Of a stretch of DNA of 64,000 nt, positions 14,328 through 60,944 are shown in pieces (the first letter of the stretch is position 1; each line of letters opens with the position of its first letter). The notes beneath the pieces were generated by a model. It saw only the letters and a program-made list of their open reading frames with translations. It searched no databases and was not told the origin of the DNA. This DNA is from Halodesulfurarchaeum sp. HSR-GB (GTDB taxonomy: Archaea; Halobacteriota; Halobacteria; Halobacteriales; Halobacteriaceae). Where the stretch lies: assembly GCF_031432215.1 (NCBI RefSeq), contig NZ_JAVKGN010000001.1:620001-684000 (forward strand), read 5' to 3'. Made by a program: the position numbers and the translations under genes.

Positions 14328-14395
14328 CTCGGGGCAGCGCGGAACCAGCCGTTCGAAAACTCGCTCACTACAGACTGAAAGTCTTGATACTGGCC

Positions 14396-14464
14396 AGCCG
14401 CTAGCGGTCTTTTTCCCCAAGTTTTTGCGAGGGGCTGCTTCGCAGCCCCTCGGAAAAAGTGGGA
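14396..14464. repeat. 69-bp hairpin repeat, copy 1
   Basis: This segment recurs almost exactly at 60526-60594 and 60804-60872. It holds a perfect 10-bp stem (GAGGGGCTGC / GCAGCCCCTC) with loop TTC, and an outer imperfect stem CTTTTTCC / GGAAAAAG. It differs from the other copies at one base (CCGCTAGC versus CCGTTAGC) and in the loop (TTC versus GAA), the latter being what an inversion of the hairpin tip would give. All copies sit on the 3' side of a tRNA gene. Confidence 0.9.
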
Positions 14465-14520
14465 GTTGGCTCGCGGTTTCACCGCTCGCCATCGAGGTCT
14501 CACTGCGTTCGACCTCGCTA

Positions 14521-14622
14521 TGCGAGGGATGGGATTCGAACCGGAGGAAGACTCGCTCCCGATGGTCGCTCGTCTTCCAGGGCTCGAACCCATCCTTCTC
14601 GTTCGCTCGAAAACTCGCTCAC
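14521..14622 (-). repeat. Partial tRNA-Leu 3'-end copy plus hairpin unit
   Basis: Bases 14521-14542 repeat exactly the last 22 nt of the tRNA-Leu gene (14623-14644), shifted by 102 bp. The DNA between them forms an imperfect inverted repeat (GGAGGAAGAC ... GTCTTCCAG) followed by CTCGTTCGCTCGAAAACTCG at 14598-14617. The tRNA-Gly locus has the same order with a 101-bp shift. It looks like a duplicated tRNA 3' end, as left by integration or repeat expansion. Confidence 0.85.
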
Positions 14623-14705
14623 TGCGAGGGATGGGATTCGAACCCACGGACTCCTTCGAGAGCGGGTCTTAAGCCCGCCGCCGTTGGCCACTTGGCTACC
14701 CTCGC
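14623..14705 (-). tRNA. tRNA-Leu (anticodon UAA)
   Basis: 83 nt without CCA. Acceptor stem GCGAGGG/CCCTCGC with discriminator A, anticodon stem GCGGG/CCCGC with loop CTTAAGA (anticodon TAA), a long class II variable arm (TCTCGAAGGAGT) and T arm GTGGGTTCGAATCCCAT. No intron. CCA is not encoded. Minus strand, directly followed by duplicated 3'-end sequence. Confidence 0.97.
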
Positions 14706-60409: not shown

Positions 60410-60515
60410 GTCTGGAGGTCCTGTGGTGACCGAATGAAGGTTTTCCTTCGGGTTGTTGGGTTGTCACGTTCTCCGCGCTCGGCTACATGATTCAATTTGC
60501 GGCCCAGCGTATCAG

Positions 60516-60619
60516 CCAATTCAACAGCCGTTAGCGGTCTTTTTCCCCAAGTTTTTGCGAGGGGCTGCGAAGCAGCCCCTCGGAAAAAGTGGGAATGCGC
60601 CGGCCGGGAATTGAACCCG
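60516..60619. repeat. 104-bp perfect direct repeat, copy A
   Basis: Identical base for base to 60794-60897, 278 bp away. It contains the 69-bp hairpin repeat (60526-60594, loop GAA) plus 24 bp of the tRNA-Gly 3' end (TGCGCCGGCCGGGAATTG and following bases). It mimics a duplicated insertion site. Confidence 0.95.
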
Positions 60620-60662
60620 ATGGCGAATCCTCGCTCGCGCTCGGATTCGCGTGGTTCAATTC
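60606..60662. repeat. Imperfect inverted repeat built from tRNA T-arm sequence
   Basis: GGAATTGAACC and GGTTCAATTCC flank GCGAATCC / GGATTCGC, with a 12-nt loop. The outer arms are the T-arm of tRNA-Gly in both orientations. Confidence 0.75.
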
Positions 60663-60696
60663 CTGCCCTGCTCGTTCGCTCGTAAAACTCGCTCAC

Positions 60697-60783
60697 TGCG
60701 CCGGCCGGGAATTGAACCAGAGGAAGCCGTGCTCACTCACTCCGTTCGTTGCGCGCGCCTTCCAGGGCTCAATTCCCGGCGTT
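60697..60783 (-). repeat. Second tRNA-Gly 3'-end copy with inverted repeat
   Basis: 60697-60718 repeats the 22-nt tRNA-Gly 3' end (101 bp from copy 1). GGGAATTGA near 60707 pairs imperfectly with TCAATTCCC near 60771, with GGAAG/CTTCC inside. The same layout is found beside tRNA-Leu. Confidence 0.75.
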
Positions 60784-60793
60784 GCGATTTCAC

Positions 60794-60897
60794 CCAATTC
60801 AACAGCCGTTAGCGGTCTTTTTCCCCAAGTTTTTGCGAGGGGCTGCGAAGCAGCCCCTCGGAAAAAGTGGGAATGCGCCGGCCGGGAATTGAACCCG
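60794..60897. repeat. 104-bp perfect direct repeat, copy B
   Basis: Second copy of the repeat at 60516-60619. Its last 24 bp are the real 3' end of the tRNA-Gly gene, so this copy is the parent and copy A the duplicate, or both derive from one event. Confidence 0.95.
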
Positions 60898-60944
60898 GGC
60901 TATGAGCTTGGGAAGCTCATGTCCTACCACTAGACCACCGGCGC
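60874..60944 (-). tRNA. tRNA-Gly (anticodon CCC)
   Basis: 71 nt without CCA. Acceptor GCGCCGG/CCGGCGC with discriminator A, D arm GGTCTAGTGGTAGGAC, anticodon stem TGAGC/GCTCA with loop TTCCCAA (anticodon CCC), T arm CCGGGTTCAATTCCCGG. No intron; CCA not encoded. Its 3' 22-24 nt are repeated downstream. Confidence 0.96.

Follow-up and report, generated by a model that had tools for sequence, protein, structure and literature searches.

Behind the tRNA-Gly(CCC) gene of Halodesulfurarchaeum sp. HSR-GB, we found an array in which direct copies of the tRNA 3' end (D) alternate with imperfect inverted copies of the same end (I), and such arrays, whose D copies are specific to the local tRNA, are linked to tRNA genes across the whole class Halobacteria and differ greatly between congeners. 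We consider it probable that they are mosaic palindromic arrays of a BIME-like kind built on the tRNA 3' end, with cassettes gained and lost by recombination between D copies. Integrating viruses and plasmids dock mainly at the 3' ends of tRNA genes; apparently, these ends also grow arrays of their own, throughout an archaeal class and in several lineages of DPANN, among them tiny archaea that occur alongside haloarchaea.

The window analysed here is a stretch of 64,000 nucleotides (contig NZ_JAVKGN010000001.1, positions 620,001 to 684,000), and all positions below refer to it unless a locus is named. The initial annotation had reported a perfect 104-bp direct repeat at this locus, and the repeat holds as described: no mismatch separates 60516-60619 from 60794-60897 over the 104 bp, both copies terminate in the final 24 nt of the tRNA-Gly(CCC) gene, and identity extends 0 bp beyond either edge (a 108-nt alignment is at 99%). 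The third copy of the tRNA end that it had placed at 60697-60718 is present as well, exact over 22 nt and with one mismatch over 24 nt. A repeat this long cannot have arisen by chance. Both 104-bp copies lie downstream of the tRNA-Gly(CCC) 3' end and in the sense of the tRNA. The accompanying idea of a tandem expansion from a tRNA came close, but it overlooked what defines the architecture, namely two imperfect inverted copies of the tRNA end, at 60766-60781 and 60653-60668, which alternate with the direct ones and were recovered within the 278-bp interval as repeat-finder pairs I5, I6, I10, I16 and I17. Read from the tRNA outwards, the array is D0-H1-I1-core1-D1-linker2-I2-core2-D2-H2, where H is an 80-nt T-rich hairpin, and the 104-bp repeat is D+H present twice. 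Its parts are as follows.

60874-60944, minus strand: tRNA-Gly(CCC), the array anchor, whose 3' end (60874-60895/60897) is D0 (ARAGORN; Rfam RF00005, 70.7 bits).
60790-60873, minus strand: H1, T-rich hairpin linker (CCCACTTTTTCCGAGGGGCTGC..GCAGCCCCTCGCAAAAACTTGGGG), identical to H2 over 60794-60873, with homologous hairpins behind six other tRNA genes.
60766-60781, minus strand: I1, imperfect inverted tRNA 3'-end copy covering the T-arm and part of the acceptor (inverted-repeat pairs I10, I16, I17).
60719-60765, minus strand: core hairpin linker 1 (CCTGGAAGGC...GGCTTCCTCTGG) of foldback cassette 1, folding with I1 and D1 at -48.3 kcal/mol (z -4.3).
60697-60718, minus strand: D1, direct tRNA 3'-end copy (repeat comparison).
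60669-60696, minus strand: D-to-I linker 2 (GTGAGCGAGTTTTACGAGCGAACGAGCA), which also opens cassettes behind Gly-TCC and Leu-TAA.
60653-60668, minus strand: I2, imperfect inverted tRNA 3'-end copy (inverted-repeat pairs I5, I6).
60620-60652, minus strand: core hairpin linker 2 (ACGCGAATCCG...CGGATTCGCCAT), folding with I2 and D2 at -42.7 kcal/mol (z -5.2).
60596-60619, minus strand: D2, direct tRNA 3'-end copy (repeat comparison).
60512-60595, minus strand: H2, second copy of hairpin H, identical to H1 over 60516-60595.
60491-60501, minus strand: possible third inverted-copy remnant beyond H2, weak (D/I pattern match with at most 2 mismatches in 11).

The locus had also been read as attL/attR of a single element of about 280 bp. 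Its direct tRNA 3'-end repeats are indeed att-like, but a single element is too narrow a reading and was rejected: the 278-bp interval comprises at least two cassettes and one hairpin, without an integrase, and the same modules stand behind many tRNA genes. A search for the 278-bp unit at other tRNA genes had been suggested, and in this genome (G000) modules of this kind do lie behind many of them. An "empty" state does exist in a relative, since the tRNA-Gly(CCC) gene of a sister species (G001) is followed by one H hairpin and no foldback cassette.

A similarity search of G000 with the window array returned a family of matches, all strong ones of which lie behind tRNA genes. Hairpin H is also found behind the Gly-TCC, Gly-GCC, Leu-CAA, Leu-GAG, Leu-TAG and Leu-TAA tRNA genes, and a 25-mer of it recurs in the window at 14406, in a second array.

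14623-14705, minus strand: tRNA-Leu(TAA), anchor of the window's second array (tRNA prediction).
14395-14622, minus strand: array behind tRNA-Leu(TAA), which ends in an H hairpin and has one foldback cassette, with D1 at 14521-14542.

Using the last 20 nt of each tRNA as query, with at most 3 mismatches and within 600 nt, in stretches around predicted tRNA genes, we found own 3'-end copies downstream of 19 of the 45 tRNA genes of G000 (27 copies), a set that holds at least one false ARAGORN call within an array, and downstream of 22/43 in G001 (40 copies); upstream, the counts were 1/45 and 1/43. A swapped control using another tRNA's end gave about 0.15 in G000 and 0.15-0.3 over G000 and G001. 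The arrays matter for tRNA annotation because software predicts false tRNAs inside them: the ARAGORN "tRNA-Ser(cga)" calls at loci L018 and L064 are false predictions of this sort, and the annotation of haloarchaeal tRNAs may be contaminated by others like them. At Ala, Val, Phe and Pro tRNA flanks of G000 (L016, L018, L022, L027, L041), a second family of long hairpins (CACCTTTTTC..CTCGAAAAATCTGCACC) was seen.

In the arrays of G000 and G001, 136 of 149 transitions alternate (DI 74, ID 62, DD 10, II 3), every junction is filled with a short hairpin drawn from one linker set for D-to-I and another for I-to-D, and hairpin H followed D in 15/15 cases examined and never followed I. D copies match the acceptor strand of their own tRNA at 7.3 of 8 positions, compared to 3.3/8 when shuffled, and 94 of 132 are perfect. 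I copies pair with the T-arm but retain little of the acceptor (1.96/6 versus 5.49/6 for D); in those of one core class, about 92% of cells pair over nine positions. The T-arm conservation is partly built in, as the search patterns required the T-arm. A comparison based on the core motif only is free of this requirement. The core linker TCAGGGAG..CGACCGTGG occurs behind 30 isoacceptors of 15 amino acids, and there too the flanking arms fit the local tRNA (duplex of -19.5 kcal/mol versus -15.1 kcal/mol when swapped, with 62 of 73 beating the swapped-arm median). At about one third of array-bearing loci, the rule is imperfect or other cassette types are present, which counts against the explanation that we favor; Arg and Ala arrays carry a D that lacks the T-loop. 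When the array loci were scanned with Rfam, only genuine tRNA genes scored above the gathering threshold, no tRNA-like fold was found inside the arrays, and no known family other than tRNA was matched.

Searches across genomes, made with patterns picked after sequence inspection and on loci whose shared ancestry makes the counts non-independent, recovered the strict pattern GGATTTGA-N15..45-GGTTCAAATCC in 216 of 292 Halobacteria genomes and 66 of 77 genera, while its reversed control had no match in any of these 292 genomes. The TTCGAATCC variant was present in 19/33 Halobacteria and in 0/164 other genomes of the phylum sample. At loci of haloarchaeal base composition, 132 of 147 modules lie at most 500 nt downstream of a same-strand tRNA gene, covering 30 isoacceptor types. 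A broader scan took one genome per species (84,980 species), and among the 120 matches listed (at least 120 exist), modules were tRNA-linked at 69 of the 76 Halobacteria loci (29 named genera), at 3/3 Nanohalarchaeota loci, at 1/1 Woesearchaeota loci and at 0/40 loci from other taxa. The DPANN loci (L172, L177, L251 and L276) contain copies of the local tRNA end or T-arm, with foldbacks. Perfect or near-perfect palindromes of tRNA 3' halves (e.g., GGATTTGAACCATGTTCCTCTGG..CCAGAGGAACATGGTTCAAATCC) were also seen in Bifidobacterium (L191, L195) and Verrucomicrobia (L189) and on IMG/VR contigs (L112, L116, L118, L124, L126, L136), with no adjoining tRNA gene found; these palindromes are a separate, bacterial phenomenon.

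A full comparison of arrays was made between two species of the genus, G000 and G001, whose tRNA genes are mostly identical. Flank similarity was mostly 0.9-1.0 for array-free tRNAs, against about 0.3-0.85 for array-bearing ones, and both the copy number of an array (usually) and its content differ between the two species: the Ser-TGA gene is followed by five cassettes of alternating kinds in G001 versus two in G000, and in its linker arrangement Gly-CCC of G001 resembles Gly-TCC of G000, and vice versa. The tRNA-Leu(TAA) array of G001 (L057) holds a cassette with a tRNA-Leu(TAG)-like 3' end, and the junction lies in the T-arm, at a downstream copy. At tRNA-Leu(CAA) of G001 (L320), the H hairpin is duplicated, and so is a larger part of the tRNA, running from the anticodon stem to the 3' end. 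In G001, the array copies at tRNA-Arg(TCT) (TTCGAATCCCACCGTGCCC) match the tRNA of G000 but not the 3' end of the G001 tRNA itself (TTCAAATCCCGTCGTGCCC) (L311 versus L031), and the G001 array seems to preserve an older tRNA end.

Since the array alternates and differs in number, D-D recombination is the simplest inference: whole D-to-D cassettes would be gained, lost and exchanged via recombination between near-identical D copies, a process that would also keep D matched to the tRNA end and leave I to decay. A single D-D exchange deleting 278 bp would convert the window array into a one-hairpin array like the one in G001. Foldback (snap-back) synthesis at the tRNA end may have produced the inverted copies and hairpins themselves, and most of the rearrangement would fall on the copies downstream and not on the tRNA. 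At 20-22 bp, D offers little length for ordinary homologous recombination, which speaks against D-D recombination. The data can be explained with no cellular role for the arrays, such as terminator or pre-tRNA chaperone, although they may have one. If this turnover is true, strain comparisons can be used to read the arrays as a natural record of tRNA-gene recombination. A more ambitious proposal, which we put forward tentatively, is that these tRNA-end-templated alternating arrays are a new class of repeats that takes its unit from the gene to which it is attached, is maintained by dedicated recombination or foldback replication, is common to haloarchaea and DPANN (Nanohalarchaeota and one Woesearchaeote) and possibly shields tRNA genes by serving as a downstream landing pad for integrases.

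The strongest competitor, which we nevertheless judge rather unlikely, is that the cassettes are att-site products: tiny non-autonomous elements, or scars of larger ones, put into the tRNA T-loop by a trans-acting tyrosine recombinase, with D as the att core and each D-to-D stretch as a mini-element. Integrases that target tRNAs classically leave direct repeats of the tRNA 3' end, D copies would also be recombined by an integrase working on the T-loop, and the exchange in the Leu-TAA cassette of G001 took place inside the T-arm. Archaeal integrases prefer tRNA 3' ends, the T-loop being a known sub-location (PMC8371274). In another genome (G165, L084:1-1560), a gene that reads as integrase-like ends beside a tRNA-Val 3'-end fragment (AATCCGCCCCAACCCA); a D/I module follows directly, and no tRNA lies within 1.5 kb. 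Judging from the sequence, this is apparently an integrative element that has pushed the module away from its tRNA gene. However, simple integration accounts for the direct copies and not for strictly alternating inverted ones, and none of the four integrase matches in G000 lies near arrays. A viral attP carrying the module was sought and rejected: 37 IMG/VR contigs match the pattern, but these matches are bacterial palindromes, coding chance or tRNA-internal, and none of the 37 holds a haloarchaeal module or linkers. The phage collection gave no module match, and the plasmid collection gave only two short matches, over the tRNA itself.

Less likely again is that the array acts as RNA, being co-transcribed with the tRNA as a structured trailer in which the I-core-D hairpin would be a conserved RNA element, for instance a tRNase Z substrate or a decoy that stops I from pairing with the tRNA. 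I-core-D units do form long hairpins whose stability far exceeds that of shuffled sequence (z -4.3 to -6.5), with arms that track each other, the first modules mostly start 30-50 or 70-80 nt behind the tRNA, and in Haloferax tRNase Z acts on tRNA-like elements (PMC4326828). Nevertheless, congeners differ in whether a given tRNA has an array, and hence no single tRNA requires one, and the absence of a tRNA-like fold from the Rfam scans does not favor a trailer either. Arm mismatches at positions 4-9 (14 G-T versus 15 A-C) reveal no clear pairing bias in the tRNA sense, and half of the D copies begin with a T-run that could end transcription early. Neither a bulge-helix-bulge splicing motif nor a K-turn appears to fit the core, as judged from its sequence. 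Whatever their origin, the arrays bear on how haloarchaeal tRNA transcripts end and are trimmed, and Haloferax volcanii is a tractable species in which deletion and sequencing work would be feasible if its own arrays are confirmed. Finally, an assembly error or a lone chance tandem duplication at the window locus, which the perfect 104-bp identity by itself would permit, is extremely improbable because many tRNA genes of this genome are followed by the same architecture, which hundreds of independent assemblies also show, and because Leu-CAA of G001 has its own comparable duplicated hairpin.

Returning to the BIME-like array with D-D recombination, we compared it with known systems. BIMEs have conserved, orientation-specific linkers, are intergenic and vary in copy number. 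According to PMC2817692, their REP palindromic units alternate in orientation. The tRNA-end arrays resemble them in both respects, with palindromic units that alternate and linkers that depend on orientation, as the transition counts and the restriction of H to positions after D illustrate; in contrast, a REP family is one sequence found genome-wide between many genes, whereas the unit of an array is a copy of the adjacent tRNA end and nearly all copies sit immediately behind a tRNA gene. BIMEs and REPs are also associated with a REP-associated tyrosine transposase (RAYT); Y1 transposase matches, of RAYT or IS200 type, number two in G000 and one in G001, and none is close to the window array. 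Integrative elements and att scars at tRNA genes, as known for the haloarchaeal SNJ2, HSTV2 and pR1SE integrase families (PMC8371274), share a duplicated tRNA 3' end beside an intact tRNA gene, and the window array has the direct tRNA 3'-end repeats of the att type (D0, D1, D2), but the arrays are gene-free tandem cassettes of ~75-150 bp with inverted copies and no integrase nearby in G000. The SMRs, PATEs and MITEs of Haloquadratum walsbyi are likewise short non-coding repeats (~80-110 bp) with inverted repeats, and some show strong target preference (PMC3119063); their terminal inverted repeats are, however, the element's own, while the repeated ends of an array are those of the target tRNA and the linkers between them vary. 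The t-elements of Haloferax volcanii are also tRNA-derived sequences outside canonical tRNAs in a haloarchaeon, but they adopt a tRNA-like fold, and RNase P and tRNase Z cut them (PMC4326828), whereas the arrays contain the T-arm/acceptor 3' strand only and no tRNA match. We found no description of such tRNA-end arrays in the open-access literature, and an account in a subscription journal is possible; they are apparently a widespread and previously undescribed kind of repeat. We file them as a variant of mosaic palindromic repeats that is a member of none of these groups, be it BIME, att scar, SMR/PATE/MITE or t-element.
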